A DNA stretch of 34,441 nucleotides. Source: Nitrospirota bacterium (GTDB taxonomy: Bacteria > Nitrospirota > Nitrospiria > JACQBW01). Location of the stretch: contig JACOTA010000018.1 of NCBI GenBank assembly GCA_016178585.1, positions 1 through 34,441 of the forward strand, given 5' to 3'. Position numbers and translations under genes: made by a program. Shown here piece by piece: positions 8,961 to 34,441 of the stretch; the first letter of the stretch is position 1, and each line of letters begins with the position of its first letter. The notes under the pieces are model-generated. The model saw only the letters and a list, made by a program, of their open reading frames with translations, searched no databases and was not told the origin of the DNA.

Positions 8961-9167
8961 GTCATTGCGTCTTTTCCCAAGAACAGAGTTAGAAAGCTGT
9001 CATTGCGAACAAAGTGAAGCAATCTCAAGACTTTACGATAAGATTGCCACGCACCCTTCGGTGCTCGCAATGACATGATTAATAAGTGGGTGCGAAGTCT
9101 ATCGCTGGTCTTGGAAACAATCTCATGTTTAGATTGCTTTGTCGCTAAAATCGCTTCTCGCAATGAC
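8961..9167. repeat. Family D repeat split by an inserted family B element
   Basis: The left end GTCATTGCGTCTTTT (8961-8975) and the right part AACAATCTCATGTTTAGATT ... TCTCGCAATGAC (up to 9167) are two halves of one family D element. A whole family B element (8977-9114) sits between them. This shows that B arrived after D. The 302-base gap before the RND gene contains nothing else. Confidence 0.75.
8977..9114 (+). mobile_element. Family B MITE-like element, copy 2 (inserted in a D repeat)
   Basis: Full-length, about 138 bases. Left end CCAAGAACAGAGTTAGAAAG and right end, read on the other strand, CCAAGACCAGCGATAGACTT are terminal inverted repeats. No coding capacity. It is nearly identical to copies 3 to 6. 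Confidence 0.88.
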
Positions 9168-9215: not shown

Positions 9216-11957
9216 ATGATTAAAAAATATGTGAACTGGTTAGTCGATCACCCTTATCGGGTCATCTTTATCGTGACGTTGATTACCCTTTTCTTTGCCT
9301 TCCAGCTTCACAACCTTTTTATGATTCTCGACCCCAAGAGGATCCTTCCCCAGGATCACCCTTTTGTTCAGCTCAATAATCAGATCGAGAAGACCTTTGG
9401 CGGAAGCCGTGTGGTGGTTATCGGCGTTTCGGTGAAAGAGGGGGATATTTTTAATCCCGTCACGCTCGCCAAAATCAAGCGGATTACCGAGGCGGTTAAA
9501 AAGGTTCCCGGAATTTTAGAGGAAAACGTTGTTTCGATCGCCGACCGCAAAATAAAATTTATCAACGCCTCTGCGGGAGGGATGGATATCCGCCCGATGA
9601 TGAGCGAGGTCCCGGCGACCAAAGAAGGTTTGGAAGAGCTTAAGAAAAACCTTTATTCCAACGACCTTTATGTTAAAAGCCTGGTTTCGGAAGATGGGAA
9701 ATCGGCGGCGATTATTACCGATTTCCGGTCGGGGGTTTTATCTCCAACAGGCTCCGGTTCGAAGCCGGGTTCGACGGCCGGAGGAAACCCCTGGTGGAAC
9801 CCCGACGGGACCCCGGATAAAAAAAACCTCCAGCCGGTTTCGCCTGGGGGCGAGCCGGGGTCCGGGGGCATCGAAGGAGATCCAGCGAGCAAAGCGAGCG
9901 AGAGGGGGGGGCTCCAGCCGGCTTCGCCGGTGGGGGGGGCGACGCAAGCCCCTAATAAATGGTGGAACGGCGACAAAAAAGGGGCATCTTCCCCGACGGC
10001 CAAGGGCGGTACGACTTACGACGTTTTATTCGGCATGGTGAACAGACTGATCTATGGAAGCAGTCCCTGGCCCATTGGAGGAGATAACCCCTACTGGACC
10101 AGCGATTCGACCATTTACAAGAAACTGCATTCGATTATCGATCTGGAAAAAGACGGCAACACAGAGGTTTACCTTGGAGGCCTTCCGGTGGCGCTCTCCT
10201 TTCTTGAAGCCGATACCAACGTCATGAATGGCATTGTTTTTCCAATTGCTTTTGTCATCATCATGGGGGTTCTTTTCCTCTCCTTTAAAAGCCTCCAGGG
10301 GATGGTTATTCCGATCCTGACAGCCTTATTAAGCGTTGTTTGGGCGCTTGGCCTTGTCGGCCTTCTGGGGATTCCCCTCGACCCCTTTACGAAAACCCTA
10401 ACCCCGCTTCTGATTGTCGCGATTGCCGCGGGCCATTCGATCCAGATCTTAAAACGGTACTATGAGGAATATGCCGTTTCTCAAAACCACCGGGAGGCGG
10501 TAAGAGAATCGACTTTAAAAATGGCCCCCATCATGCTGACTGCCGGCCTGGTCGCCTCGGCCAGTTTTGCCTCTCTGGTGACCTTTCATTTAAAAACCTT
10601 TCAGGCCTTTGGGCTGTTAACCGCCTTTGGCATTTTATCGGCCGTGGTTTTGGAGCTGAGTTTTATTCCGGCTTTTAGGATCATGATTAAACCAGGAGTC
10701 AAAGCCGCGCGTGAAACTCCCTCGTCCCTGGACCGGGTTTTGGCGTCATGGGGTGCCGCGATACCCAGGCAAAAATTCAAGATTCTTCTGGCCGGGGTCT
10801 TATTTTTAGTCATCAGCTTGGTGGGGGCCTCCCAGGTCAGGGTCAACAACAGCCTCAAAAATCAGTTTTTTGAAAAAACAGAACTCCGTCAAAGCGACCG
10901 GGCCATCAACCAGGCGTTTGGCGGCACCTCTACCTTTTATATTTTGATCGACGGCAAAAAAGCCGACCGGTTAAAAGACCCCGGCATTATGGCGGGCATC
11001 GAGGGGCTTCAGCGCCTTCTTGAATCGATTCCGGGGGTTGGAAAAACCCAATCTTACGTCGATTATTTAAAAAAGATGAACCGGTCGATTCATGGGGGAG
11101 ACCCGGTCTGGGAGAAAATACCGGAATCCCGCCAAGCCGCGGCGGAATACCTTTTTCTCTATTCGATCTCCGGAAACCCGGCGGACTTTAACCGTTTGGT
11201 CAATTACGATTACCAGCAGGCGGTCATCTGGACTTTTTTAAAAACAGACAGCACCGATCTGGCGGAGCGGCTCATTAAAGAGGTCGAAGCGTATAAACCA
11301 GGTCATTTTGACTCCGATATTTCGGTCGGGGTGGCGGGAAGCTCTCCCGTGACCGTCGCGCTCAACGAAACCATGGTGAAGGGAAAAGTTCAAAATATCC
11401 TTCAGGTCAGCGGTTTAACCTTTGTCATCGCCTCTCTGGTTTTTCGTTCATTGTTAGGGGGGCTCCTGGTCCTCATCCCGGTGCTGTTAGCGGTATTTAT
11501 TAACTTTGGCATTATGGGTTTCTCAGGCCTCACCCTTGGAATTGGAACGGCGACCATTTCAGCCATGTCGGTGGGTTTGGGGGCGGACTATGCGATTTAT
11601 TTCATTTTCCGCCTTAAAGAAGAGTTTAAGAAGTTTTCAGATATAGATCCAGCGAGCAAAGCGAGCGAGAGGGGGGGGCTCCATCCGGCTTTGCCGGTGG
11701 GGGGGGCGACGCAAGCCCCTTTGGAATCGGCAATCTCAAAAACCATGAGTACTGCCGGAAAATCGATCCTGTACGTCGCCTTTGCCATTTCAGCCGGGTG
11801 TGCCACCTTGATATTTCCCGGCTATTATTTGCATGCCGAAGGGATTTTAGTTCCGCTGGCGATGTTAACAAGTTCCTTAGGCGCCATTTCGCTGATTCCC
11901 GCTCTGATGGCCTGGCTTCGCCCTAAATTCATTTTCGGCCCCGCAAAAATGATGTAG
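9216..11957 (+). CDS. RND/MMPL family transporter with repeat-derived insertions
   Basis: A 913-residue inner-membrane transporter with two halves, each one helix, a large periplasmic loop and five more helices. TM1 is YRVIFIVTLITLFFAF (about 15-30); the first TM block starts near 335 (GIVFPIAFVIIMGVLFLSF) and has GHSIQILKRYYEE; the second half starts near 521 (FKILLAGVLFLVISLVG) and has MSVGLGADYAIYFIFRLKEE near 790. It resembles HpnN-like and MMPL proteins that move lipids to the outer membrane, usually about 770-880 residues. The extra length comes from a low-complexity stretch at about residues 180-270 in periplasmic loop 1 (NPWWNPDG, NKWWNGDK and repeat H copy 2) and from repeat H copy 3 in a cytoplasmic loop near 812. 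The upstream AGGAGG is unusually far (14 bases) from the ATG. LolA-like, barrel and RND genes probably form one transport route. Confidence 0.92.
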   Translation: MIKKYVNWLVDHPYRVIFIVTLITLFFAFQLHNLFMILDPKRILPQDHPFVQLNNQIEKTFGGSRVVVIGVSVKEGDIFNPVTLAKIKRITEAVKKVPGILEENVVSIADRKIKFINASAGGMDIRPMMSEVPATKEGLEELKKNLYSNDLYVKSLVSEDGKSAAIITDFRSGVLSPTGSGSKPGSTAGGNPWWNPDGTPDKKNLQPVSPGGEPGSGGIEGDPASKASERGGLQPASPVGGATQAPNKWWNGDKKGASSPTAKGGTTYDVLFGMVNRLIYGSSPWPIGGDNPYWTSDSTIYKKLHSIIDLEKDGNTEVYLGGLPVALSFLEADTNVMNGIVFPIAFVIIMGVLFLSFKSLQGMVIPILTALLSVVWALGLVGLLGIPLDPFTKTLTPLLIVAIAAGHSIQILKRYYEEYAVSQNHREAVRESTLKMAPIMLTAGLVASASFASLVTFHLKTFQAFGLLTAFGILSAVVLELSFIPAFRIMIKPGVKAARETPSSLDRVLASWGAAIPRQKFKILLAGVLFLVISLVGASQVRVNNSLKNQFFEKTELRQSDRAINQAFGGTSTFYILIDGKKADRLKDPGIMAGIEGLQRLLESIPGVGKTQSYVDYLKKMNRSIHGGDPVWEKIPESRQAAAEYLFLYSISGNPADFNRLVNYDYQQAVIWTFLKTDSTDLAERLIKEVEAYKPGHFDSDISVGVAGSSPVTVALNETMVKGKVQNILQVSGLTFVIASLVFRSLLGGLLVLIPVLLAVFINFGIMGFSGLTLGIGTATISAMSVGLGADYAIYFIFRLKEEFKKFSDIDPASKASERGGLHPALPVGGATQAPLESAISKTMSTAGKSILYVAFAISAGCATLIFPGYYLHAEGILVPLAMLTSSLGAISLIPALMAWLRPKFIFGPAKMM
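9882..9953 (+). repeat. Family H in-frame coding repeat, copy 2 (RND periplasmic loop)
   Basis: A 72-base element, 24 codons, read as PASKASERGGLQPASP then VGGATQAP at about residues 223-246 of the RND protein. It differs from copy 3 at only two bases. A partial copy of its middle (CTCCAGCCGGTTTCGCC) lies just before, near 9828-9855. Confidence 0.9.
11649..11720 (+). repeat. Family H in-frame coding repeat, copy 3 (RND cytoplasmic loop)
   Basis: A 72-base element read in the same frame as copy 2, giving PASKASERGGLHPALP then VGGATQAP. It sits between KEEFKKFSD and LESAISKTMSTAGKSI, a place where related transporters have a short loop between a helix and the next amphipathic helix. Confidence 0.9.
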
Positions 11958-13239: not shown

Positions 13240-13270
13240 AAAACAGAGTTTTTCTTTTTGTAACCCTTCC

Positions 13271-13447
13271 GTAACCCTTCAGTGAAACGGGGCGATACAC
13301 ACGAAAGGGCCTGGTGTGACCTGAAAGGAGACTTCGGCGAAGTTTGTTGATCCCGCCATAATGTAAAGTCCAGAAATGAGGATAACTTCGTCGGCGTCGG
13401 AGAGACGGTCATTCCAGGCCCTTGAGAACCCTTGACTGAAGAGTTAC
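13271..13447 (-). mobile_element. Family G MITE-like element, copy 1
   Basis: Left end GTAACCCTTCAGTGAAACGG and right end, on the other strand, GTAACTCTTCAGTCAAGGGT are inverted repeats over about 16 bases. The inside shares GCGAAAGGGCCTGGTGTGAC-like and CGGAGAGACGGTCATTCC segments with copy 2 at 24607-24730, but has about 55 extra bases. The 13240-13865 gap holds only this, C3 and B3, plus the leader of the next gene. Confidence 0.8.
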
Positions 13448-13614: not shown

Positions 13615-13752
13615 CCCAAGAACAGAGTTAGAAAGCTGTCATTGCGAACAAAGTGAAGCAATCTCAAGACTTTACGATAAGATTGCCACGCACCCTTCGG
13701 TGCTCGCAATGACATGATTAATAAGTGGGTGCGAAGTCTATCGCTGGTCTTC
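13615..13752 (+). mobile_element. Family B MITE-like element, copy 3
   Basis: Full-length copy beginning CCCAAGAACAGAGTTAG and ending TCTATCGCTGGTCTT, placed 18 bases after element C3. The 110 bases after it are AT-rich and lead to the start of the large heme protein. Confidence 0.88.
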
Positions 13753-13865: not shown

Positions 13866-16800
13866 ATGGCGAGGCAATCGGTGGTCGCGTGGAAAAAAAC
13901 AGTGGTCCTGGGTTTCTTACTCTTCGTCGGGATGGCGGCGTTCACCGCTCTGGCCCCCTCAACGGCCAAAGCCGCTTCGTGCGATACTGCCGGGGCGACC
14001 GTCCCTTGTTCCGAAGACAAAACCCTGGACGGCTGCACCCAATGCCACAGTATGCAGATCGCTGGAGGAAACCGCAGCGGAGGCGTCGCGACGACAGATC
14101 GCTATATTAACCTCAGCGCAAGCGCTCAACGGCATATCCTCGATCCCCGGGTCACGGATTGGACGTTTATCATTGATCAAATGATTCTCAAGGGCGCCGT
14201 CGCCGATTCGGCCAAGCTTTCGGCCTATTTAAATACGAATTATTGTCCCTCCTGTCTGGGACCGATCATCAGCAGTCCGACCGTTTCGGGAATCGCCGGC
14301 GACAGCGCCACCATTAATTGGACGACCGAAGTCCCCGCCACCACTTGCGTTGCCTACGGGACCAGCGCGACTTCATTAACGGGGGATACCTGCACGGCCT
14401 CCGATCCAAACTACGACGCCACGAATGCCACACTCGTCACGAGCCATGCGGTTGTATTAAAGGGCCTGACCGCCGGCCTTACCAAATATTATTTCGTCCA
14501 CCGGTCGGCCGAAAGCGGGGGGGCGACGGCAACCTACTCCGCGGCCCAAAGCTTTCTAACTTCGCCCGGCGGGGGCGGTGGAGGAGGCGGTACCGTCGGA
14601 ACCATCATTTCATTGGCGGTTGGTAATTACAGCGCCGACACCAATCTGGATCTCGCGGTGAGCGTAAGCGGAAAGAATCAGGTCATCGCTTATTTAGGGA
14701 ACGGAGCAAACGGGTTTACTCCGGGACCGCCCCTCGCCAACGTGGGAACCTCGCCGCTCTCCATCACCTCCGGGGGGGTCAAAGGGGATTTCAACGGGGA
14801 TGGAAGAGATGATCTTGCCGTCGCCAATTTCGGCGCGACGGGAACCGGACAGAATGTCGCCATCTTTTTAGGGACCGGAACGGCAACTTCCGCTAACCCG
14901 GCTTTCCAGTCGACGCCGGTGACAACGATCCCCCTGGTCGATCCGCCGACCTCGGTTGTGACCGGAGATTTTGATAATGACGGCAAACTCGACCTCGCGG
15001 TTGCCACCGTCGGGACAGCCGGGCATGTGTTAATTTTTAAGGGGGACGGAACCGGCGGTTTTGCCACCCCCCCGGTCACTACCCTGTCGCTCAGCGTTTC
15101 CACCGGTCCTGTTCCGACCATTACCTCCGCGGCAGTGACCGGCCTTCCCTCCATACAGTGTCAGGCTCTACCGCTCGATCTAACGATTATCGGCACGAAT
15201 CTCTTTGACGGTCTGACCTACTTCCATTTGGAGGATGGGACGACGCTGTCGGTGAAGTCGACTTCCGCCGACTCCACCACGGTGATCGCGACCCTCCCTT
15301 CGGGCGTGACCGCTGGAGTCCACACGGTGGTGGCGACCCTGGGGTTGGAAACTGGCGTAAGCCCTCCCATAACCATCTCCCCCCGCATTCTTAAGCTGAA
15401 TTACACCACGAGCAGTCCGGTGGCCTATGGAAGCGCCGGAACGATTTATATCGTTGGAGGCGTCCCTAACTCTTATGGCGGAACCGCTACTGCCTTTGCC
15501 GCGGGAGCGACCGTCACAATCGGTCCGACCCCTCTGGGAAGTCTCACGGGAACAGTGGTTGCCGGATCAGCGCCGTCCGCCGCGACCCCGTTTGTTTTGA
15601 TTAACGGGAACACCATAGGATTCTACTGGTCCGGGACCGAATTGCCCGCGGGAACCTACGATGTCAGCGTGGCCGATCATGACGCCTGCGCGGGAGGCGC
15701 GACGGTTCATAACGCCCTCACTGTTTATGGGACACCTCCCCAGCCGACGATCACGAGTGTCAGTCCCGCAACCCTATCGTATGGAACCGCCGTGAGCCAG
15801 GCGATCGTCATCAACGGGACAAATTTCGTCGCCGGATCGACGATCACGGTCGGAACCCTCACCGGAACGACTGTGACGTCGCCAATAGCCAGCGCCAACG
15901 TACCCTACAGTTACTCCAGCGGTGGAAAGCTCTACTTCTGGTGGCCCAATACGGCGCTCCCCGTTGGTTCGTATACGGTGACCGTTGCCAACCCCTCGGT
16001 GACGGGTGGATTGTCGGCAAGTCTGACCGGCGGGTTTACCGTAGCGGCCCCACAGCCGGCGATCACGAGTGTCAGTCCCGCGACCGTCGCATATGGGAGC
16101 ACCGCCAACCAGGCCATTGCTATCAACGGCGCGAATTTCGTTTCCGGGGCCACGATCACCGTCGGCACTCTCACCGGGACAACTTTTACGTCGACGATCG
16201 CCACCGCCGCCTTTCCTTACAGTTACAACAGCAGTGGGAAGCTCTATTTCTGGTGGCCCAACACCTCGCTTCCCGCCGGGACGTACAATGTGACGGTGAC
16301 CAATCCGGCTTCCTATGGAGGTTTGTCGGTCACCCTGACCGGCGGGTTTACCGTTGAGACGCCTCAGCCGGCGATTACAAGCCTCACGCCCGCGACCGTT
16401 TCGTATGGGACTACCGCCAGTCAGGCCATCCTCATTAACGGGACGAATTTCGTATCCGGTGCGACGATTACGGTCGGGACCCTCACCGGGACGACGATTA
16501 CCTCGTCGGGAACAGCTAACAGCACAAATCCATATACTTATTACAATAGCGGGGGGCTTTACTTCTGGTGGCCCAATACGTCCCTTCCCGTCGGGACGTA
16601 CAACGTGACGGTGACCAATCCGGCGTCCGTGGGAGGCCTGTCGGTCACCTTGACCGGAGGCTTCACAGTCTCTTCGTCAATACCTCCCCAGCCGACCATT
16701 ACGAGTGTGAGTCCGGCGACCGTTATTAGTGGAATCACCGCCAGCCAGGCGATTGCGATTAACGGCACAAATTTTGTTTCCGGGGCGACCATTACCGTCG

Positions 16801-17942
16801 GCACCCTCACCGGGACGACTGTGACGTCGACGATCGCCACGGCCAGCTCTCCTTACAGTTACAATAGTAATGGAAAGCTCTACTTCTGGTGGCCCAATAC
16901 CTCGCTGGCCGCCGGAACATACGACGTGACGGTGACCAATCCGGCTTCCGTGGGAGGATTGTCAGCCACCCTGACCGGCGGGTTCTCAGTCCAGATTCCC
17001 CAGCCGACGATCACAAATCTTACTCCCGCCACCGTCTTGTCTGGCGGGGTTACGGCCAGCCAGGCGATCGCCATCAACGGCTCGAATTTCGTCACCGGTG
17101 CGACGATTACGGTGGGTACCCTTACCGGTACGACGATCACGTCGACGGTAAAAGCCAACAGCAGCAACCCGTACACTTACTACAGCAGTGGTCTTCTTTA
17201 CTTCTGGTGGCCCAATACATCGCTTCCGATCGGGACTTACAACGTAACGGTGACCAACCCGGCCTCGGCGGGAGGCTTGTCGGTTACCCTGACCAACGGC
17301 TTCACCGTTGCGGGCCCCCAGCCGACGATTACAAGCTTGAACCCCGCGACCGTTTCGTATGGGGTGACCGCCAGCCGGGCCATTGCCATCAACGGCACGA
17401 ATTTCGTGTCGGGGGCAACGATCACGGTCGGAACCCTCAGCGGGACAACCGTTACGTCGGCAACAGCGACCGCGAGCGTGCCCTACAGCTACAACAGCAG
17501 TAGTATTCTTTACTTCTGGTGGCCCAATACCTCGCTTCCGATCGGGACTTATAACGTAACGGTAACCAACCCGGCCTCGCAGGGAGGTTTGTCGGTTACC
17601 CTGACCAACGGGTTTACCGTCGCGGCCCCCCAGCCGACGATTACAAGCTTGAACCCCGCGACCGTTTCGTATGGGGTCACGACCAGCCGGGCTATCCTCA
17701 TTAACGGCACAAATTTCGTCACCGGAGCAACGATTACGGTCGGTTCCCTTACCGGGTCGACCGTGACGTCGTCGGGAACGGCTAACGCCACCCTGCGCTA
17801 TACCTATTACAATAGCGGAGCGCTCTACTTCTGGTGGCCCAATATGTCGCTTCCCGTCGGGACATACAACGTGACGGTAACCAACCCGGCGTCTGTGGGA
17901 GGTCTGTCGGTCACCTTGACCGGCGGGTTTGTCGTGCAATAG
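13866..17942 (+). CDS. Large secreted monoheme protein with FN3-like, FG-GAP and seven IPT/TIG repeats
   Basis: A 1358-residue exported protein. Order: signal peptide (to about 36, ending APSTAKA); mini-cytochrome with CTQCH at 57-61 and a Met at about 106 in DWTFIIDQM; FN3 or phosphatase-N-like domain (about 132-233, TINWTTEVPATTCVAYG); an eight-glycine linker (about 235-242); FG-GAP/VCBS calcium-type repeats (about 245-410, GDFNGDGRDDLAVANFG and GDFDNDGKLDLAVATVG); two diverged IPT domains; then seven near-identical IPT/TIG repeats of about 104 residues from 626 to the end. There is no anchor or sorting signal I recognise. ATG 13866 has GGAG upstream. It is followed at once by two propeller-cytochrome genes, and its cytochrome module matches theirs, so they likely act together at the cell surface. 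Function is unknown; a surface fibre holding a heme head is a reasonable guess. Confidence 0.92.
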   Translation: MARQSVVAWKKTVVLGFLLFVGMAAFTALAPSTAKAASCDTAGATVPCSEDKTLDGCTQCHSMQIAGGNRSGGVATTDRYINLSASAQRHILDPRVTDWTFIIDQMILKGAVADSAKLSAYLNTNYCPSCLGPIISSPTVSGIAGDSATINWTTEVPATTCVAYGTSATSLTGDTCTASDPNYDATNATLVTSHAVVLKGLTAGLTKYYFVHRSAESGGATATYSAAQSFLTSPGGGGGGGGTVGTIISLAVGNYSADTNLDLAVSVSGKNQVIAYLGNGANGFTPGPPLANVGTSPLSITSGGVKGDFNGDGRDDLAVANFGATGTGQNVAIFLGTGTATSANPAFQSTPVTTIPLVDPPTSVVTGDFDNDGKLDLAVATVGTAGHVLIFKGDGTGGFATPPVTTLSLSVSTGPVPTITSAAVTGLPSIQCQALPLDLTIIGTNLFDGLTYFHLEDGTTLSVKSTSADSTTVIATLPSGVTAGVHTVVATLGLETGVSPPITISPRILKLNYTTSSPVAYGSAGTIYIVGGVPNSYGGTATAFAAGATVTIGPTPLGSLTGTVVAGSAPSAATPFVLINGNTIGFYWSGTELPAGTYDVSVADHDACAGGATVHNALTVYGTPPQPTITSVSPATLSYGTAVSQAIVINGTNFVAGSTITVGTLTGTTVTSPIASANVPYSYSSGGKLYFWWPNTALPVGSYTVTVANPSVTGGLSASLTGGFTVAAPQPAITSVSPATVAYGSTANQAIAINGANFVSGATITVGTLTGTTFTSTIATAAFPYSYNSSGKLYFWWPNTSLPAGTYNVTVTNPASYGGLSVTLTGGFTVETPQPAITSLTPATVSYGTTASQAILINGTNFVSGATITVGTLTGTTITSSGTANSTNPYTYYNSGGLYFWWPNTSLPVGTYNVTVTNPASVGGLSVTLTGGFTVSSSIPPQPTITSVSPATVISGITASQAIAINGTNFVSGATITVGTLTGTTVTSTIATASSPYSYNSNGKLYFWWPNTSLAAGTYDVTVTNPASVGGLSATLTGGFSVQIPQPTITNLTPATVLSGGVTASQAIAINGSNFVTGATITVGTLTGTTITSTVKANSSNPYTYYSSGLLYFWWPNTSLPIGTYNVTVTNPASAGGLSVTLTNGFTVAGPQPTITSLNPATVSYGVTASRAIAINGTNFVSGATITVGTLSGTTVTSATATASVPYSYNSSSILYFWWPNTSLPIGTYNVTVTNPASQGGLSVTLTNGFTVAAPQPTITSLNPATVSYGVTTSRAILINGTNFVTGATITVGSLTGSTVTSSGTANATLRYTYYNSGALYFWWPNMSLPVGTYNVTVTNPASVGGLSVTLTGGFVVQ
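15741..17939 (+). repeat. Seven tandem 312-324-bp repeats coding IPT/TIG domains
   Basis: Repeats begin at 15741, 16053, 16365, 16689, 17001, 17319 and 17631, each with CAGCCG(A/G)CGAT-like starts and the shared block TACTTCTGGTGGCCCAA (YFWWPN). Two subtypes occur: PYSYNS type (1, 2, 4, 6) and PYTYYNS type (3, 5, 7). The order A-A-B-A-B-A-B shows that two-repeat units were duplicated. Confidence 0.93.
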
Positions 17943-17943
17943 A

Positions 17944-19296
17944 GTGACCTGTACGCGGATCAACGTGAGGGCCTGCCTGATCTGGCTTGCCCTCGTCATT
18001 TCTTTAGCGCCGCTCTCCTCTCACGCCGCCGGGCGGAATAACCTCTTCGTCACCCAGATTGTCATTCATCCGCTCGATCCCAGGATCGTCTACGCCGTCA
18101 CCACCTACAGTATCGGCCTTCTCAAAAGCACGGACAGCGGTCAGCATTGGTCCCTGATCAATAATGGGATCAAGAGCTACTCCCTCTATCACTTTGCGGT
18201 CCATCCCAGGGATCTCAACACGATTTATCTCGGCGCGGGAGGCGGAGGCCTCTATAAGAGCGTCGACGGGGGAAATCATTGGGTCGAGAGGAATGATGGA
18301 TTCCAGGACACCGATATCGGCCAGATGTTTCTCCACCCCAACGATCCCGATAAAATTTATGTCGTTTCCGCCACCGGGGTTTACAAAAGCCCGGACGGCG
18401 GAAAAAGCTGGGAGGCATGGAACCAGGGGGACACCTTTACCACCAGCCAGGAATTTCAGAATATTCTGATCATCCCGGGAAAGCCTGGCCCGGGCGGGGC
18501 CAAAGCGCCCGATAAATTTTTCCTCGCCTCCAAACATGGCCTCTACACCCGGGCTGAGGACGATCCCTTATGGAGATTGGCCTCGAAAGAGCTGGAAGAA
18601 AAGATGGTCAGCGCCCTGGCGGTTGATCCAGGCGGAAAACGGATCTACGCCGCCATCTTTCGAAACAGTCAGACCTTAAAAGGGGGGGGGCTCTTTGCCA
18701 GCGACGACTTCGGCGTCCATTGGAAAGAGGTGGGAAAGGGGATTGAGCGCGATTGGATCCGCGTGATCCGGTTCGATCCAGGCAATCCGAAGCGGCTCTA
18801 TCTTGCCACCTCATTTCGCGGGGTTTTGGTCAGTCTGGACGGGGGCCAAACCTGGAAGGAGTCGAATAAAGGGTTGGACGCGACCGACCTGAGGGCGTTG
18901 GTTCTCGATCCCTCCAACCCCAATATCCTCTACGCCGGCGCGCATGGAGAAGGCATTTTTAAGTCGACGGACGGCGCCGCGACATGGACCCATCTTGACA
19001 ATATTCCGATGCTGGAGGGAAAAGCGATCATCGCGCAATTAACCACCCCGGATCCGAATCGAAAGAAACCCGATCTTTCTCCCCCCGCCGCGTTCGCCAA
19101 ATGCAACAAGTGTCACGGTTGGACCGATCCCTTTCTCAACACCGTAAACGGCTTCTGGCTGGTAACTCCGAACAGGCGGGATTGGAGCTTGACCGTGAAG
19201 CGGATGAGAAGAGGCGCCGGGCTGACCGACAACGAAGAAGAGATCATCACCAACTTTCTCAACGCCTATAGCGGCGCCTATGGCAATGCGCCATGA
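17944..19296 (+). CDS. Beta-propeller (Asp-box) protein with C-terminal monoheme cytochrome, P1
   Basis: An exported protein of about 450 residues. The signal peptide is INVRACLIWLALVISLAPLSSHA. The body has at least six Asp-box repeats of the Ycf48/sortilin type (KSTDSGQHW, KSVDGGNHW, KSPDGGKSW, ASDDFGVHW, VSLDGGQTW, KSTDGAATW), each after a VxxxDPxxPxxIYA-like strand, as in a seven-bladed propeller. Near the end KCNKCHGWTD (CxxCH at 19102-19116) is followed by PNRRDW, TVKRM and FLNAYS, the heme module shared by the cluster; the Met of TVKRM is the likely second heme ligand. GTG 17944 starts one base after the upstream stop, so translation is probably coupled; TTG 17929 and GTG 17965 are alternatives. 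Location: periplasm or cell surface. Substrate unknown. Confidence 0.9.
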   Translation: MTCTRINVRACLIWLALVISLAPLSSHAAGRNNLFVTQIVIHPLDPRIVYAVTTYSIGLLKSTDSGQHWSLINNGIKSYSLYHFAVHPRDLNTIYLGAGGGGLYKSVDGGNHWVERNDGFQDTDIGQMFLHPNDPDKIYVVSATGVYKSPDGGKSWEAWNQGDTFTTSQEFQNILIIPGKPGPGGAKAPDKFFLASKHGLYTRAEDDPLWRLASKELEEKMVSALAVDPGGKRIYAAIFRNSQTLKGGGLFASDDFGVHWKEVGKGIERDWIRVIRFDPGNPKRLYLATSFRGVLVSLDGGQTWKESNKGLDATDLRALVLDPSNPNILYAGAHGEGIFKSTDGAATWTHLDNIPMLEGKAIIAQLTTPDPNRKKPDLSPPAAFAKCNKCHGWTDPFLNTVNGFWLVTPNRRDWSLTVKRMRRGAGLTDNEEEIITNFLNAYSGAYGNAP

Positions 19297-20626
19297 ACTT
19301 TCTACACCGGGAATCCCTGACCGGACTTCTCATCTATTCCGCTGGCCCATACCGGTCGTCCTGATCCCCCTGATTCTTCTCTCGATTTACTCTCCTTCTG
19401 CCTTCCCCGGCGAGCGGCCCTTTCATTTTATCCGTGCCATCGCTATTGACCCGGCGGCCTCTGAAACCCTTTATGCCGCCACCGATAATCAAGGGCTGAT
19501 TAAAAGCGTCGATGGAGGAGGCCATTGGCGTTTCATCAACACCGGAATCATGGATGATCTCGTGTATGATGTCAAAATCTCCCTGATCACGCCCCGTCGA
19601 ATTTACGCAGCGGCCTGGGGTTCCGGTTTTTATCAAAGCGAGGATGGAGGGGAATCATGGCGGGAAGTCAATGCCGGGCTGGGGAACACGGCGATTGGCG
19701 TCATTCTGCTGCAGGCCGATTCAAAAGGGCGGTCGGAGACGATCACCATCGGAACATCGACCGACCTCTACGAACGCCGGGCCGAGGAGACCGTGTGGCG
19801 GTCCATGACCGGGGGACTGGCGTTCTGGAACGGTCCGCAGTTTCAAAGCCTGATCATTGGAGGGTCTGATCCGGGCTCTCTGTGGATGGGATCGGAATCG
19901 GGTCTTTTTCAGAAAACCATCGGCATTTCCGGCTGGAGAGCGGTGAAACCGCTCCGGGGAATAAAAATCACGGTCCTGACGGCTCGATCAAAACCTGATT
20001 TGCTTTACGCGGGGACGCTCGGCGGCGGATTATTCGTCAGCGATGATCAGGGAAAAAGCTGGGTTCGAACCGGAATAGGCCTGGAAAAGGCGTGGATACG
20101 GGCCATCGCGATCCATCCCTCTGACGCCGGGGTAATCTACGCGGCTGCCAGCGTATCGGGAATTTTTAAAAGCCGGGACGGGGGAAAGTCATGGAGGGTC
20201 GTCAATCGCGGACTTACCGATCAAGATGTCCGGGCGCTGGCGATCGACCCGAGACGCCCGGAGATTCTCTTCGCCGGAACACACGGGGCGGGGATTTTCA
20301 AGTCGATCAACGGTGGAACGTCGTGGCGACACCAAAGCGGTCTTCCCTTTCTTGATTTAAGCCGTCAGTTGGAGTTTCTCAACGCCCAGGCGAACAGGGA
20401 AAAACCGGACATCGCGGCGCCGGCTTCGTTCCGAAAGTGCAATCATTGCCACGGCTGGACCGATCTCAATCTGAATCAAAAGGCAACCCCGTGGCGCGTA
20501 GCGGCGAACCGAAGGGACTGGAAACAAACCGTCGCGCGCATGACCGGCGGGACCGATATCCGTCCGGAAGAAGAGGAAGAGATCACGAGATTTCTTGAAC
20601 GCTTTACGGAAACCCGTGTCCCGTAA
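19280..20626 (+). CDS. Beta-propeller (Asp-box) protein with C-terminal monoheme cytochrome, P2
   Basis: A 448-residue paralogue of P1, overlapping its end by 17 bases, so the two are co-translated. After a hydrophobic export segment (WPIPVVLIPLILLSIYSPSAF) come Asp-boxes KSVDGGGHW, QSEDGGESW, VSDDQGKSW, KSRDGGKSW and KSINGGTSW. The C-terminal module has KCNHCHGWTD (CxxCH at 20438-20452), NRRDWKQTVARM and a last helix EEEEEITRFLERF. Unlike P1 the residue pattern after the Met is TGGTDIRPEE rather than RGAGLT. ATG 19286 is a possible internal start. It ends just before a family B element that separates it from the convergent gene P3. Likely periplasmic or surface-bound electron-transfer or assembly factor, by family analogy only. 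Confidence 0.9.
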   Translation: MAMRHELSTPGIPDRTSHLFRWPIPVVLIPLILLSIYSPSAFPGERPFHFIRAIAIDPAASETLYAATDNQGLIKSVDGGGHWRFINTGIMDDLVYDVKISLITPRRIYAAAWGSGFYQSEDGGESWREVNAGLGNTAIGVILLQADSKGRSETITIGTSTDLYERRAEETVWRSMTGGLAFWNGPQFQSLIIGGSDPGSLWMGSESGLFQKTIGISGWRAVKPLRGIKITVLTARSKPDLLYAGTLGGGLFVSDDQGKSWVRTGIGLEKAWIRAIAIHPSDAGVIYAAASVSGIFKSRDGGKSWRVVNRGLTDQDVRALAIDPRRPEILFAGTHGAGIFKSINGGTSWRHQSGLPFLDLSRQLEFLNAQANREKPDIAAPASFRKCNHCHGWTDLNLNQKATPWRVAANRRDWKQTVARMTGGTDIRPEEEEEITRFLERFTETRVP

Positions 20627-20627
20627 T

Positions 20628-20764
20628 CCCAAGACCAGCGATAGACTTCGCACCCACTTATTAATCATGTCATTGCGAGCACCGAAGGGTGCGTGGCAAT
20701 CTTATCGTAAAGTCTTGAGATTGCTTCACTTTGTTCGCAATGACAGCTTTCTAACTCTGTTCTA
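20628..20764 (-). mobile_element. Family B MITE-like element, copy 4 (reverse orientation)
   Basis: Starts CCAAGACCAGCGATAGACTT and ends with AGCTTTCTAACTCTGTTCTA, the reverse complement of the other copies. It fills almost the whole 171-base gap between the convergent genes P2 and P3 and starts one base after the P2 stop. Its strong hairpin could end transcription from both sides. Confidence 0.88.
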
Positions 20765-20797
20765 GGGGTAATGGTTTTTCCAACGGTGGGACTGTTT

Positions 20798-22087
20798 TTA
20801 AGGCGGTTTCCTCTGGCTGTAAGTGTTTAAAAAAGAGATAATCTCTTCTGTTTCCGCCGGGGTCAGCCCGGCCCCCCGGCTCATCCTTTTGACCGTTGGC
20901 CGCCAATCCCTGCGATTGGGAGGCACCCGCCAGAACGTTTTCTTCCGGGTTAAAAAAAGATCGGTCCAGCCGTGGCACTTTGTGCACTTGACGAAGGGGG
21001 CGGGAATGACCGGCGCTCTGTCCGGAGTCGGCGCCTCATCCGGCACCAGCGAGTTGATGATCGATGAAACCGGTTCCCGCGTAATCTCCGGAGCGATCCA
21101 GGTCGTTCCTCCGTCCCGTGAAATAAAGATTCCTTTATTGTGGGTTCCGGCGTAAAGCCGGTCGGGATCCTCCGGATCAATCGCAACGCTCATGATATCG
21201 TCGTCTAAAGGCAGGCCGCCCGACATTCTTATCCAGGTCGCTCCCTGATCGAGGCTCTTAAAAAATCCTTTTCCAAAGGCGCTGACGTATATCTCGCGGG
21301 GTTTCTTCCGGCTGACCGCGATGGTGTTGACCCACGCTCTGTTGAAAGGTCCCTCGACAGGAATCCAGCTTCTCCCCCGGTCGCGCGAGAGGAAGGGACC
21401 GGCATGAAGGGTTCCGGCGTAGAGAATCTGATGCTCGCGGTCGAACGCCAGCGTCGTGATCACCTCTTTCTTCAGCCCTTCTCCCAGAGGCGCCCACGGA
21501 CCGGCCGCGCCGCGCGCGTAAAGGAGTTCCTGGCCGAGGAAGAGACGAGACGGCGGCGCCGTCTCGAAGAGGAGGGTCGCGATTACCTCGCCTTCAAGGG
21601 AAGGAAGCCCCTCCCCATAGGCCGACCAATGGATTCCGCCATCCAGGCTTTGGAAGAGATCGCCGGTTGAGGTCCCGACGACCACTCGTTTTGGATTATT
21701 TGGATCGACGGCCAGGGCGTGGATATTGGTGTTGCCCAATCCATCGTTGATTTCAACCCAATGTTCTCCTCCGTCGGCGCTTTTGAAGACTCCCCCGCCG
21801 AACGTCCCCAGATACAAGGTTTTAGCGTTTGCCGGATCAAGAGCCAGGTGATAGGCGCTGGTGTTTTTGAGGCCGTTCCGCGCCGGCGACCAGCTCTTTC
21901 CGCGATCGGCGCTCTTGAGCACCCCTTGAGGCCGGGCCGCGGCGTAGAGGATCGCGGGCTCATTCGGATCGATGAGGATCTGATTGATCATCAGCGGCTC
22001 CCCGGCGAACGACGCCGTAGAAAGGAGAAAGAGCGCGGACATGGCGAGGCAAAGCGGTTGTTGCTGGTGAGCGGAGACGAGGGTCAT
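20798..22087 (-). CDS. Beta-propeller (Asp-box) protein with C-terminal monoheme cytochrome, P3
   Basis: A 429-residue exported paralogue of P1 and P2 on the minus strand. The signal peptide is around LCLAMSALFLLSTASFAG. Asp-boxes KSADRGKSW, KSADGGEHW, QSLDGGIHW, LSRDRGRSW, KSLDQGATW and ISRDGGTTW mark the blades. The C-terminal module is KCTKCHGWTD (heme motif on 20972-20986), PPNRRDW, TVKRMSRGAGLT and FLNTYS, nearly the same as in P1. Its ATG overlaps the TGA of the upstream gene P4 by four bases (ATGA), so the two are translationally coupled. It is the last gene of the minus-strand operon P6-P5-P4-P3. The function is not known. Confidence 0.9.
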   Translation of the reverse strand: MTLVSAHQQQPLCLAMSALFLLSTASFAGEPLMINQILIDPNEPAILYAAARPQGVLKSADRGKSWSPARNGLKNTSAYHLALDPANAKTLYLGTFGGGVFKSADGGEHWVEINDGLGNTNIHALAVDPNNPKRVVVGTSTGDLFQSLDGGIHWSAYGEGLPSLEGEVIATLLFETAPPSRLFLGQELLYARGAAGPWAPLGEGLKKEVITTLAFDREHQILYAGTLHAGPFLSRDRGRSWIPVEGPFNRAWVNTIAVSRKKPREIYVSAFGKGFFKSLDQGATWIRMSGGLPLDDDIMSVAIDPEDPDRLYAGTHNKGIFISRDGGTTWIAPEITREPVSSIINSLVPDEAPTPDRAPVIPAPFVKCTKCHGWTDLFLTRKKTFWRVPPNRRDWRPTVKRMSRGAGLTPAETEEIISFLNTYSQRKPP

Positions 22088-23328
22088 GGAGGAAATTCAA
22101 TCCATCGACCCAGGCTGGCGGCGAGTCCGGACCGGTAATCCTTCCAGACGAGAAGAAAGCGCCGCCCATCCGTGGAGACTTTCGCGAAATGGTTTCCGAA
22201 CGACCGGGAGACAAAGGTCGTTCGGGGGTATAGAGGCTCAGCCGCCCGGCTGGAAAATGCCTTTTCAGAATCTTTCAGACGAATGCCGTTGATGTCGCGG
22301 ACGACATCCTGGATTCCGGTCATTTTCTCTTTAGACCCGTTCTCCTCTTCCCAGATTACCAGGCACTCTTTGTTCCGGCAGGCGATGTCCGGAAACATAT
22401 GGAAACGAGGGGTTGTGGAGAGCGGCGCCCCGTTTGGCTCCAGCGCCTTCCCTTTCGAATCGATCCGGGCGCCGTAGAGGGTATATTGCGCGCCGTCCCT
22501 CCGATCGACCCAGACAACAATCACATGCTTCCCGTTCCAGGCGACTGCCGGAAATCCCTGTTCCCCGGGGAGCGACGCCACGCTGATACCGGCCGGGTCA
22601 AGGAGGTTTCCCTTCCGATCGACTCGCGCGCCATAAATATCCTTTGATTGATCAAGGCGCCCATCCATCCAGACCACAACGAAATCCCTTCCGTTCCAGA
22701 CCACCGCGGGAGAGGTTTGGTCTCCTTTTTCACGGCTGATCGAGATCCCTTTCGGATCGAGAACTTTTCCGCCCGGAGTCACCCGCGCGCCGACGATATC
22801 CCATCCCGTTCCGGCGCTCTCCTCCGTCCAGACGACCAAAAAGTTTTCCCCATTCCATGCCGTGACCGGATGTTTCCGGTTCGCGGCGCCGACCCCGATC
22901 GGAATGTCGCCTGAATCGAGAGGCCGTCCTCCCGCATCGATGAGCCTTCCGAAAATTTCAAGATTTTTACGGCGTCGAAGATCTTGCCAGACGACCAGAT
23001 AATGTTTCTCTCCCCACGCGAGCATTGGAAAAAGTTGTTGAGAGGCGGAGGAGGAAACCGGAAAACCTTCTTTCTGAATCCTTTCCCCGGCGGGGGTCAG
23101 TTGAGCGCCGTAGACGCGCCGCAGACCGTTCCGGGTCGACTGCCAGACAATCAACGCGTGATGTCCATCCCAGGCGGCCACCGGGTCTTCTTCTTCTTCG
23201 CCGGCCCGGACGGAGATGGGAAATTCTTTTCCGATCATGGGAACGGTTTGTTCGAACGCCCTTCCAATCTCAATCGGGAAGAGGAGGATCGGAACGATCC
23301 AGAGAAGAACCCGCAAAATCATAATCAT
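22084..23328 (-). CDS. Secreted repeat beta-propeller without heme, P4
   Basis: A 414-residue exported protein (signal MIMILRVLLWIVPILLFPIE). It is made of about six to seven repeats of roughly 55-60 residues with the pattern P-x-x-A-W-N-G-x-x-x-x-V-V-W-x-D-x-R, then D-I-Y-G-A-R-V and G-x-x-L-D-P-x-G-I-x-I-S (for example PAVVWNGRDFVVVWMDGR and KDIYGARVDRKGNLLDPAG). Each looks like one propeller blade. Unlike its neighbours it has no CxxCH and no Asp-box, so it is not a direct paralogue. The repeat type is seen in uncharacterised secreted proteins. It lies 25 bases after P5 and overlaps P3 by four bases. It may be a structural partner of the heme propellers. Confidence 0.85.
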   Translation of the reverse strand: MIMILRVLLWIVPILLFPIEIGRAFEQTVPMIGKEFPISVRAGEEEEDPVAAWDGHHALIVWQSTRNGLRRVYGAQLTPAGERIQKEGFPVSSSASQQLFPMLAWGEKHYLVVWQDLRRRKNLEIFGRLIDAGGRPLDSGDIPIGVGAANRKHPVTAWNGENFLVVWTEESAGTGWDIVGARVTPGGKVLDPKGISISREKGDQTSPAVVWNGRDFVVVWMDGRLDQSKDIYGARVDRKGNLLDPAGISVASLPGEQGFPAVAWNGKHVIVVWVDRRDGAQYTLYGARIDSKGKALEPNGAPLSTTPRFHMFPDIACRNKECLVIWEEENGSKEKMTGIQDVVRDINGIRLKDSEKAFSSRAAEPLYPRTTFVSRSFGNHFAKVSTDGRRFLLVWKDYRSGLAASLGRWIEFPP

Positions 23329-23353
23329 TCAGCGACGACCCCCGTTTTTTGAA

Positions 23354-24694
23354 TCATTTTTTTGACCCTCCCGCGGGCAAATCAAAATCGGTTTTAGAGT
23401 CATTTCCCGTCGTTCTGTAAATCCAGGCGTTTGGCGGAAGGGTTGTCCCGGCGTAAAGGTGTTTGTCGAACACCGTCATCGCCTCAATGGTGAAAGGGCC
23501 CAGTTGTCCGACTTCTTTCCATCGATCCCCATCCCCTGTCCGAAAAATTACGCCGCCGACAGCGGCATAGAGAAACTTGTTCAGGACCGCCATCGATCCG
23601 ATGTAACCCCGTGTTGTTTTAGGGTCGGCTGAAAAGACGCGGGTCGGCGCCCCTCCCGCCAGTTCGAATTTAAAAATCTCTCCTCCGCCGGTTGTTCCGA
23701 CGTAGAGCGCCCTATTGAAAAAGGCGGCGCCGCGCACGCCCTGAAAATATTTTTCTTGCGGGCGGTCTCCGCCGGATGGCCAGAGCCGTTTCCAGGTCAT
23801 CCCGTCCTCTGATCGATAAAGCCCCCCCTTCTCGATTCCGGCATAGAGGGCCCCGTCAAAAGGGAGGATGAATCGCACCCAATGGGTGAAGTCCGCCCCG
23901 GCGTTCGGGATCAAGTCGCTCACCCTCGTCCAGCTTGTTCCGTTCGATGACCGGTAAAGGGAGGCCCGCGTGGTTCCGGCGTAGAGGACCCCCTTGTAAA
24001 CGCCGAGGCTGGTTGCTCCTTTTTCCTCCGGCAAACGCGCGCTCAAATGCCACCTCTTCCCGTCCGCACTGCTCCATATCTCTGCCGCGGGGTCATTGGT
24101 CACGCCATATAATCTGTTTTGAAAAGGGATCAACCCGTAGACCGTATAATTGGAAGTCGTCAAAGCGGGTTTCCAGGTCGAATCTTCACCGAACTCGAAG
24201 ATGCTTCCGTTTCCCTCGATTCCCGCGAATAGCCGGTGACGAAAGGCGCCCAGAGCGACCACATTCCACCCTCCGGGCACATTCCCGGTCCGCTCCCACC
24301 GGATGGAATAGCTTATACCGTAATGGAGCATAAGATGTTCTGTCAGTTTTTTTTGCTCGGTATCGGTCATCTCGCATCCCATTGCGCGCATCCACGGAAT
24401 CACCAGATCCCAGGGCCGTCGCGTGATGGGATGCGAACGTCCTCCTTCGCATTCTCCGGAGAGGCATTGGCCTTCCAGGGTGATGCCATGGCACTTTCCG
24501 CAACGCGTGACGATCAGGCTCCGACCATCGATTTCGCCGAAGGCGGGAACAATCCGAATATCCAGAAAAAAGAGCAAGAGCAAAGGGAAAAAGACGATGC
24601 CCCGCCGTAACCCTTTGGTAAAACGGGGTGATCCACGCGAAAGGGCCTGGTGTGACCTGAACGGAGACATCGCCGGCGTCGGAGAGACGGTCAT
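23354..24694 (-). CDS. Propeller protein with N-terminal monoheme cytochrome, P5
   Basis: A 446-residue exported protein in which the heme module is first and the propeller second, the reverse of P1, P2, P3 and P6. After a hydrophobic export segment (IVFFPLLLLFFLD) come CGKCHG (heme motif on 24488-24502), then RRPWDLVIPWMRAMGCEMTD and LTEHLMLHYG. The Met of PWM is the likely second ligand. Extra cysteines (GQCLSGEC) lie just after the heme. The propeller has weaker Asp-boxes: WSSADGKRW, YRSSNGTSW, YRSEDGMTW and FRTGDGDRW. The first 29 or so codons, with the start ATG, lie in the family G element at 24607-24730, so the gene seems to have gained its start from it. No better start is seen. It is 67 bases after P6 and 25 before P4. 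Confidence 0.87.
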   Translation of the reverse strand: MTVSPTPAMSPFRSHQALSRGSPRFTKGLRRGIVFFPLLLLFFLDIRIVPAFGEIDGRSLIVTRCGKCHGITLEGQCLSGECEGGRSHPITRRPWDLVIPWMRAMGCEMTDTEQKKLTEHLMLHYGISYSIRWERTGNVPGGWNVVALGAFRHRLFAGIEGNGSIFEFGEDSTWKPALTTSNYTVYGLIPFQNRLYGVTNDPAAEIWSSADGKRWHLSARLPEEKGATSLGVYKGVLYAGTTRASLYRSSNGTSWTRVSDLIPNAGADFTHWVRFILPFDGALYAGIEKGGLYRSEDGMTWKRLWPSGGDRPQEKYFQGVRGAAFFNRALYVGTTGGGEIFKFELAGGAPTRVFSADPKTTRGYIGSMAVLNKFLYAAVGGVIFRTGDGDRWKEVGQLGPFTIEAMTVFDKHLYAGTTLPPNAWIYRTTGNDSKTDFDLPAGGSKK

Positions 24695-24730
24695 TCCGGG
24701 CCCTTGAGAACCGTCGACCGAATAGTAACG
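24607..24730 (-). mobile_element. Family G MITE-like element, copy 2 (gives P5 its start)
   Basis: Left end GTAACCCTTTGGTAAAACGG and right end, on the other strand, CGTTACTATTCGGTCGACGG are imperfect inverted repeats. The middle shares CGAAAGGGCCTGGTGTGACC and CGGAGAGACGGTCATTCC with copy 1 at 13271-13447. On the minus strand it contains ATG 24694 and ATG 24670, both in frame with P5. Confidence 0.82.
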
Positions 24731-24760
24731 GTCATCTTTGAAAAGGTTTTCATCATAATA

Positions 24761-26035
24761 TTACGGAGTCCGTTGAGCATGCGGGGGCTGATGGCTATAA
24801 GCGGTCAAGAAGTTGACCACCACCGATTCCTCCTGTTTCGTCAACCGGGCCCGCTTTGCCATCCTGCCGACGGTATATTTCCAATCCCGTTGATTGGGCG
24901 GAACCCGCCAATAGGTTTGTTTCCGACTCAGCGCCGAATCGGTCCATCCATGACAGGCATTGCATTTTAGAAAGGCCTCCGGCACTGCAGGAGGCTTCTG
25001 AGTCGACGGGGAAGAATTCGACAACAGCGAGAGGATTTCGGTTATCGTGAAGGAAGGCATCGGTTTGACCGGGTACCATTGCGCGCCGCCGTCCACCGAA
25101 CGGAAAATCCCGTTGCTGGTTGTTCCGGCGAAGAGGAGAAATCGGTTGAGCGGGTGGATCGCCAGGCTGCGAATGTCTTGATCGTTCAATCCGTTATTCG
25201 ACGGCTTCCATGATTTTCCGCCGTCGGTCGATTTCAAGATGCCTCTCCCGCGTGTCGACAGATATAAAACGCGGGAATCGGACGGGTCCAGGACAATCTG
25301 GTTGATCCACAATCCCTTCTCGATTTTCATTTCATTCCATTCTTTTTTTTTGTCCTCTCGCGTAAAGAGGCCTTTTGCCAATGTCCCGACCCACAGCACC
25401 CGTTTATTTTCATCGTAGGCCAGGGCACTCACACGCGTGTCTCGAAACTTTTCCTCGGCGCTCCACCGGGGAGCATGAATGGCGCGCTGAAAGAGTCCCT
25501 GAGAGTTCCCGTACCAGAGGGTCTTGGGCGGGCCGGGTGAAATAACCAGACTCTTAAATTTGATCTCATCGGGAAAAGGGGGGAGCCCTTCTCCAAAAGA
25601 AACCCATCCCTTTCCCGAATCGGCGGTCCGATAAAACTGAGTCGAGGCGGCGATGTAAAGCCGATCGGGCGATCCGGGATCGACTGCGATGGCGTCAATC
25701 GCGGTATTACCCAGCCGGTCATTCATTTCAACCCAGGTTTCGGCGTCGTCCCCGCTTTTGGAGATTCCCCCTCCCCAGCCCCCCGCATAGAGCTTCGTGA
25801 ACGTCACCGCGAGGGCGTGATGGGTGAAACTCCTCAGGCCATGGTTCGCCGTCTTCCAGGTTAAACCCGCGTCTTCGCTCTTTAAAACACCGTAATTGCT
25901 GGTGATGGCGAAGACCTCTTCTTTATGGGTCGGATGGCCGACGATTTGATGAATAACAAACGGAGTCTCTTTTCCGCTTTCCAGAGCCGACAGGTCGGAA
26001 TCCAGACAAAAACAGAGGATGAGGATCGCCCTCAT
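24761..26035 (-). CDS. Beta-propeller (Asp-box) protein with C-terminal monoheme cytochrome, P6
   Basis: First gene of the minus-strand operon, about 424 residues from ATG 26035, chosen because AAGG lies nine bases upstream; the longest frame starts at 26077. The signal is MRAILILCFCLDSDLSAL. Asp-boxes are KSEDAGLTW, KSGDDAETW, RTADSGKGW, KSTDGGKSW and RSVDGGAQW. The C-terminal module has KCNACHGWTD (heme motif on 24950-24964), PPNQRDW, TVGRMAKRARLT and FLTAYS. It lacks the Gly after the Met helix seen in P1 and P3 (KRARLT for RGAGLT). A large inverted pair of family C elements stands directly upstream. By analogy with Ycf48-like propellers it could help assemble or hold a redox complex; this is inference. 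Confidence 0.9.
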   Translation of the reverse strand: MRAILILCFCLDSDLSALESGKETPFVIHQIVGHPTHKEEVFAITSNYGVLKSEDAGLTWKTANHGLRSFTHHALAVTFTKLYAGGWGGGISKSGDDAETWVEMNDRLGNTAIDAIAVDPGSPDRLYIAASTQFYRTADSGKGWVSFGEGLPPFPDEIKFKSLVISPGPPKTLWYGNSQGLFQRAIHAPRWSAEEKFRDTRVSALAYDENKRVLWVGTLAKGLFTREDKKKEWNEMKIEKGLWINQIVLDPSDSRVLYLSTRGRGILKSTDGGKSWKPSNNGLNDQDIRSLAIHPLNRFLLFAGTTSNGIFRSVDGGAQWYPVKPMPSFTITEILSLLSNSSPSTQKPPAVPEAFLKCNACHGWTDSALSRKQTYWRVPPNQRDWKYTVGRMAKRARLTKQEESVVVNFLTAYSHQPPHAQRTP

Positions 26036-26111
26036 CACGGGGACCTTCACTCCCCCGAAAATCGTCACCATTCTCATAAGTCGTTTGCATCATTTTCAAA
26101 TTAACAGGTTA

Positions 26112-26431: not shown

Positions 26432-26575
26432 GAACAGAGTTAGAAAGCTGTCATTGCGAACAAAGTGAAGCAATCTCAAGACTTTACGATAAGATTGCCA
26501 CGCACCCTTCGGTGCTCGCAATGACATGATTAATAAGTGGGTGCGAAGTCTATCGCTGGTCTTGGGGGGTCACCA
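26431..26575 (+). mobile_element. Family B MITE-like element, copy 5
   Basis: Joined directly to C2 at the left (GGAACAGAGTTAGAAAGCTG). Core and right arm (GCGAAGTCTATCGCTGGTCT) match the other copies. Three elements thus stand side by side from 26112 to 26575. Confidence 0.88.
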
Positions 26576-28152: not shown

Positions 28153-28226
28153 TTTACAGGAAAAAAATGAACAGTTCAACAAATCAACAGTTCAACAGAT
28201 CAACCCATTGCAGTGACAAACGGGGT

Positions 28227-28433
28227 GTTATTGCGAAAAGCATTAGCGGCGAAGCAACCTTAGATTGCTTCGCTTTGCTCGCAATGACAGGCGGAGTGTC
28301 ATTGCGAGGAGGGTTTTTCGACGAAGCAATCTTTTTTTTCAAGCCGAGCAGAGAGAGATTGCTTCGCTTTGCTCGCAATGACAGGCGGAGTGTCATTGCG
28401 AGAAGGGTTTTTCGACGAAGCAATCTTTTTTTC
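28227..28433. repeat. Family D palindromic repeats, two copies plus a truncated third
   Basis: D units start at about 28227, 28298 and 28392. A block of about 77 bases beginning GATTGCTTCGCTTTGCTCGC at 28263 recurs at 28357 with very few changes, so they arose by tandem duplication. The third unit breaks off after GACGAAGCAATCTTTTTTTC and runs straight into the next gene. Confidence 0.85.
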
Positions 28434-28445
28434 GCGTTATTGTCG

Positions 28446-34308: not shown

Positions 34309-34441
34309 CCCAAGAACAGAGTTAGAAAGCTGTCATTGCGAACAAAGTGAAGCAATCTCAAGACTTTACGATAAGATTGCCACGCACCCTTCGGTGCTCG
34401 CAATGACATGATTAATAAGTGGGTGCGAAGTCTATCGCTGG
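34309..34441 (+). mobile_element. Family B MITE-like element, copy 6 (cut by window edge)
   Basis: Starts CCCAAGAACAGAGTTAG nine bases after the TPR gene stop and runs to the window end at TCTATCGCTGG. Sequence is nearly the same as copies 2 to 5. Confidence 0.88.

Follow-up and report, generated by a model that had tools for sequence, protein, structure and literature searches.

Known routes for electrons outside the inner membrane run mostly through multiheme cytochromes or cytochrome-porin arrangements. Fusion of one class-I heme domain to a beta-propeller is found in PQQ quinohemoprotein alcohol dehydrogenases, cytochrome cd1 NirS and c-type NosZ; their propellers belong to families other than the Asp-box type and hold the catalytic cofactor, and to our knowledge these enzymes do not occur as paralogous sets of four. 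Small CxxCH domains with a later W...M motif also transfer electrons inside multisubunit complexes in the alpha subunit of QHNDH (PF09098; 1jju, 1jmx) and in SorB (2blf), and the locus described here carries domains of this kind. The propeller fold of four of its proteins (P1, P2, P3 and P6) is that of Ycf48/HCF136 and of GH74 and sortilin proteins, none of which has a heme domain. Single-heme domains joined to binding modules are known from Cbp2D of Cellvibrio japonicus, which contains CBM2, FN3 and two single-heme domains and for which a role as redox partner has been proposed (PMC8981238). In the Cyc2 and Mtr/Mto conduits, electrons pass beyond the inner membrane by way of heme proteins; Cyc2 too has a single heme (PMC10734462).

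The locus lies in a window of 34,441 nucleotides (the whole stretch of DNA that was analysed) from a Nitrospirota genome, G000. In the ORF list of this window, seven ORFs spanning 13866-26077 form two convergent gene groups, A-P1-P2 on the forward strand and P6-P5-P4-P3 on the reverse strand (Table 1).

Table 1. Genes of the locus and copies of the dispersed repeat in the window.
Feature	Position	Strand	Length	Description
A	13866..17942	+	1358 aa	Signal peptide; N-terminal monoheme domain (CTQCH 14034-14048); FnIII-like domain (aa ~141-229); FG-GAP repeats (aa ~308-386); ~8 IPT-like 'choice-of-anchor Z' repeats
P1	17929..19296	+	455 aa	Signal peptide; Asp-box propeller; C-terminal monoheme domain (CNKCH 19102-19116)
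P2	19280..20626	+	448 aa	Architecture as P1 (CNHCH 20438-20452)
P3	20798..22087	-	429 aa	Architecture as P1 (CTKCH 20972-20986)
P4	22084..23328	-	414 aa	Exported, without heme; propeller-like 'VVW.D.R' repeats
P5	23354..24694	-	446 aa	N-terminal monoheme domain (CGKCH 24488-24502), then DUF6242-like propeller
P6	24761..26077	-	438 aa	7-bladed Asp-box propeller; C-terminal monoheme domain (CNACH 24950-24964)
Dispersed 137-bp repeat, copy 1	13615..13751	+		Left edge of locus
Dispersed repeat, inverted copy	20628..20767	-		Between the two convergent gene groups
Dispersed repeat, copy 3	26432..26566	+		Right edge of locus
Dispersed repeat, further copies	8970-9112; 34309-34441			

P1 and P2 overlap by 17 nt, P3 and P4 by 4 nt (ATGA), and A and P1 by 14 nt if P1 starts at the TTG at 17929, with GTG codons at 17944 or 17965 as alternatives. 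Exactly one CxxCH was present in each of A, P1, P2, P3, P5 and P6, and none in P4. Composition-preserving shuffles gave a probability of 0.0001-0.0013 (0.01-0.13%) for a chance CxxCH in a single protein, and the flanking genes of the locus contained no such motif. All seven N-termini, read by eye, showed a hydrophobic export segment; a simple lipobox was seen in none. The motif count and the N-termini confirmed the claim of an earlier note on this DNA that six of the seven genes carry a single CxxCH and an export signal; the two convergent groups with ATGA and 17-base overlaps were likewise present as it had described them. The true start of P5 is uncertain, because its first ~31 codons lie on a repeat that recurs at 13264-13447. 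We considered this second copy as a truncated P5 gene and rejected it, since it matches only the first codons of P5 and the DNA upstream of them, and is a repeat.

Pfam (Sortilin-Vps10/BNR) identified P1, P2, P3 and P6 as Asp-box propellers, and these four proteins are paralogs, with 38-39% identity to P6 over their full length. The propeller of P5 is of a distinct type, DUF6242. P4 gave no match above cut-off in Pfam or NCBIfam (only weak matches to DUF3659 and beta_prop_Msarc), and from its repeats it looks like a propeller. IPT-like repeats were found in A alone, where they were matched by NCBIfam NF058597 and not by Pfam TIG; a weak T2SSB match in A sits in the repeat region and was discounted. 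The scaffolds had been described beforehand as either Asp-box propellers or IPT/TIG repeats, which held for the four paralogs and for the IPT-like repeats of A, but not for P5 or P4, nor for TIG in the Pfam sense. The AlphaFold model of P6 (pLDDT 88.5, pTM 0.85) showed a propeller of 7 blades and, C-terminal to it, a helical cytochrome domain (helices 367-374, 399-409 and 414-428). A Foldseek search with this model matched GH74 and Ycf48 propellers, and its best matches were to the propeller part. No curated whole-protein family in Pfam or NCBIfam covers the fused propeller-heme architecture. Heme-less Asp-box propellers of ~360 aa, related to P1, P2, P3 and P6, were common in other families of the class (G303, G375, G399, G382, G224 and others).

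We aligned 42 heme domains of three types, comprising the C-terminal domains of the P1/2/3/6 type and the N-terminal domains of A and P5. The only invariant columns were C, C, H, W and M, a pattern that makes His/Met ligation likely. With a CxxCH in an exported protein and a conserved distal Met in a helical fold, the heme domain is likely a small class-I cytochrome c with a His/Met-ligated heme, as judged from the sequences. The best PDB relatives of the heme-domain profile were QHNDH alpha (E = 1.6e-4) and SorB (5.9e-4), and Pfam Dehyd-heme_bind was the commonest weak match (25/42). The P6 heme domain scored 19.0 bits against PF09098, below the cut-off of 25.2. P5 has three extra Cys residues (C77, C82 and C107) that are invariant in ten P5 sequences, and the fused P5 copy of G004 is without the third of them. 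Genes for cytochrome c maturation and heme attachment were found in the genome.

Full-length heme propellers occurred in ten genomes, all of one class (G000, G001, G004, G006, G007, G008, G011, G012, G016 and G025), which belong to five families. Among 396 genomes drawn from the phylum, full-length P-type proteins occurred in 7, P5 in 7 and both in 6 (hypergeometric 9e-12, not corrected for phylogeny). When 84,980 species were scanned by pattern, at a sensitivity limited to close relatives, relatives were confirmed in the Nitrospirae only. The order P6-P5-P4-P3 was kept in G000, G025, G001 and G008, while G007 and G012 showed P6-P5-P1'-X-P4-P3, where X is a further propeller. The order in G011 was P1-P4-P3-P6-P5, and both G011 and G006 retained P4-P3-P6. 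Orthologs of A were present in G001, G008, G007 and G012, with the N-terminus only in G025 and G002. In these A-type proteins the N-terminal heme domain and FnIII are constant and the C-terminal repeats are swapped (IPT-like, CARDB or a YNCE-type propeller). In G007, a RoxA/MauG-like di-heme protein (L051:12503-13999) is encoded ~1.8 kb downstream from A-P1; a fructose-bisphosphatase gene separates the two. A second, more divergent cluster type occurs in G004 and G016 and adds a ~630-aa protein with two CxxCH motifs (L056:6572-8467 and L057:9760-11631; 66% identical) that matched nothing in Pfam, NCBIfam or the PDB. The earlier note had named a scatter of the genes in related genomes as evidence against its reading; the opposite was seen, as the gene set is syntenic in relatives. 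The set is a real, coherent unit, and P6-P5-P4-P3 is conserved across several GTDB families.

Two natural fusions were found within this set. P6 and P5 form one 856-aa ORF in G001, with CxxCH motifs at 395 and 471 (76 aa apart), and P4, P6 and P5 form one 1267-aa in-frame ORF in G004, with CxxCH motifs at 806 and 900 (94 aa apart). Neither ORF contains an internal signal peptide, so both are true gene fusions, as distinct from ORFs joined by the loss of a stop codon. The fusions set two heme domains back to back, and they are the best evidence that P4, P5 and P6 work together. The domain arrangement in the model of the P6-P5 fusion is uncertain (pTM 0.52), and no heme distances were taken from it.

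The GC content of the locus was 57.3-57.5%, against 47.6-48.4% in its flanks. By rpoB, G000 is near G001 and G002 (90-91%) and far from G025 (74%); a G012 rpoB fragment (25% identity, poor alignment) was left out of this comparison. However, P1 of G000 was 76% identical to its G025 ortholog (blastp) and 68% to that of G001, and trees paired G000 with G025 with support of 0.98 for P1, 0.99 for P2 and a weak 0.55 for P6; the P3 tree left the placement of G000 unresolved. The cluster genes of G025 were also unlike those of G011 and G006 in its own family. Since P1 and P2 are closest to those of a genome from another family despite the rpoB relationship, the cluster has moved between families, and the locus is accessory and horizontally transferred.

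The ~137-bp dispersed repeat occurs in at least 40 copies in the genome, 99-100% identical and some at contig ends, with five in or at the edge of the window. We had considered 132-bp direct repeats as a transposon-like boundary, but with at least 40 near-identical copies of the repeat in the genome they do not prove an insertion, and the idea was dropped. A is divergent to P6 and adjoins it in G025, G001 and G008. Each arm of the G000 locus is flanked by inverted copies of the 137-bp repeat, so that two inversions through these repeats would convert one layout into the other. A peptide resembling 'DPASKASERGGLxPAxPVGGATQAP' occurs twice in the MMPL-family protein at 9216-11957 and looks like an in-frame repeat insertion. 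The annotated start of the ORF at 28167-29063 is probably too early, because its first part translates repeat-like DNA ('DCFALLAMT...LLRFARNDRRSVIARR').

The chromosomal site of the locus is old. The same flanks, from LolA to OMP and then from moaA to TPR, occur in G002, which belongs to a different genus within the family and carries between them a two-gene version made of P5-like and A-like monoheme proteins. In G001 the site is occupied by an unrelated 1722-aa BNR/IPT protein that has no heme, and the cluster of G001 lies elsewhere. The interval between OMP and moaA (L141:10089-15257 in G001; L140:6618-11973 in G002) holds different large exported proteins in three genera of the family and is a variable surface-protein locus.

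We propose, with a probability of about 0.45, that the products of the locus are subunits of a single heteromeric assembly, secreted or periplasmic, that transfers electrons outside the cytoplasm. Each of them would combine a docking or recognition scaffold (a propeller, or FnIII with IPT-like repeats in A) with one class-I-type heme domain. The identity among the G000 paralogs was 48-67% in the heme domain and 35-37% in the propeller; the four Asp-box paralogs thus keep the heme domain and diversify the propeller, which is best understood as different positions in a complex or as different docking specificities that feed a common relay. P6 and P5 would adjoin with neighbouring heme domains, and P4 would be their heme-less partner. 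We infer that the proteins form a complex in which electrons would hop from heme to heme via protein contacts and not along a multiheme wire. Export would be by Sec, heme would be supplied by the cytochrome c maturation machinery, and type II secretion may carry the proteins to the surface. Since P1', X and the full A are missing from some genomes, any such complex would vary in composition. No signalling domain, no known cofactor site beyond heme c and no glycosidase architecture was found in the cluster proteins, and on these grounds we read the locus as an extracytoplasmic electron-transfer assembly with docking propellers.

The earlier suggestion of a surface redox machine fared in two ways. 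It is compatible with the GspC-D-E-F-G type II secretion operon found in the genome and with a neighbour of the cluster in G025 and G011, two relatives from one family, that is GspC-like but scores below curated cut-offs. On the other hand, the MtrB/PioB porin was found in none of the ten carrier genomes (0/10). The cluster contains no gene for an outer-membrane conduit or a quinone-linked enzyme either, which leaves a gap in the electron route into or out of the cell. That these Nitrospirota, which are uncultured, possess an electron conduit of a new class, extracellular or in the envelope, in which several single-heme propeller subunits replace a multiheme cytochrome wire by passing electrons over their contacts, and which spreads between families by gene transfer, is a doubtful proposal, if a possible one.

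The same domains could instead belong to a periplasmic multi-subunit oxidoreductase, in which the propeller would bind a substrate or an organic or metal cofactor and the heme domain would take the electrons away, with quinohemoprotein dehydrogenases, cytochrome cd1 and hydrazine synthase as parallels. The nearest solved relatives of the heme domain and its weak Dehyd-heme_bind matches speak for such an enzyme, as does the two-CxxCH protein of the second cluster type. However, the propellers resemble Asp-box, GH74 and Ycf48 propellers and not those of PQQ, d1 or QHNDH-beta type. The propeller residues shared by every one of the four paralog groups serve mostly the fold (Asp-box S, D, G and W), no His/Cys/Asp cofactor set outside the heme domain is shared across these groups, and the cluster is without a cofactor-synthesis gene. 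We regard this reading as unlikely. An attack on polysaccharides, with carbohydrate-binding propellers and Ig repeats and a cytochrome that reduces an oxidase such as an LPMO, seems quite improbable to us. The propeller fold is nearest to GH74 xyloglucanases, A links a monoheme domain to repeats that resemble FnIII and IPT, and an isolated heme domain of Cbp2D reduces LPMOs (PMC8981238); but GH74 enzymes consist of two propellers with the active site between them, the P6 model shows one 7-bladed propeller, and a Pfam search of the clusters found no LPMO, CBM family or glycosidase.

Two further roles had been raised in advance, heme-bearing assembly factors of Ycf48 type and a sensor array, and both are disfavoured. 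For a chaperone or assembly role of this kind, the resemblance is one of fold: the propeller is 7-bladed and of Asp-box type, Ycf48 matched the P6 model with a TM-score of about 0.7 on the target, and PSII_BNR matches occurred in Pfam. The NCBIfam model NF010237 scored only ~27 bits against a cut-off of 326, though, Ycf48 itself is without heme, and GH74 and sortilin match equally well or better, which makes such a role very remote. A heme-based sensor, or a mixture of surface adhesins in which the cytochromes play a minor or structural part, is highly unlikely. The adhesin-like repeats of A fit it, as do the different large surface-type proteins (one of them without heme) at the OMP-moaA site in three genera; against it, none of the cluster proteins has a signalling domain, the heme ligands and the Trp are invariant in all 42 domains, and the heme domain is better conserved than the propellers.

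Compared with described systems, the electron-transfer assembly proposed here has known parts in an unfamiliar set. The similarity to QHNDH and SorB is weak (E 1.6e-4 to 0.009) and below the Pfam cut-off, and here one heme per protein sits on an Asp-box propeller; by Pfam, the seven proteins include no di-heme QHNDH alpha, QHNDH-type propeller beta or CTQ gamma subunit. Like the locus proteins, Cbp2D is exported and modular, with single-heme domains joined to FN3 and binding modules, but it has no propeller, carries CBM2 and a quinone-binding YceI-like domain, and is not a multi-gene paralog set (PMC8981238). In contrast to Cyc2 and the Mtr/Mto conduits (PMC10734462), the locus is without a porin. 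We also weighed NXR-T of the anammox tubules as a possible parallel and set it aside, as it is described as a four-helix bundle and a propeller goes unmentioned (PMC8387239). No described system with the same make-up was found in the open-access literature searched, and the statement that no named system has it stands for that literature and for the curated families. The locus is a defined and testable gene set whose natural fusions point to the parts that touch, and no cultured member of these lineages is known to carry it. It suggests electron transfer by cytochromes outside the cytoplasm, and there is a fair chance that the class is a distinct one. A conserved and transferable gene set for single-heme propellers would give groundwater Nitrospirota either a further architecture for the task that the multiheme and porin systems perform, or an unrecognised multisubunit enzyme.
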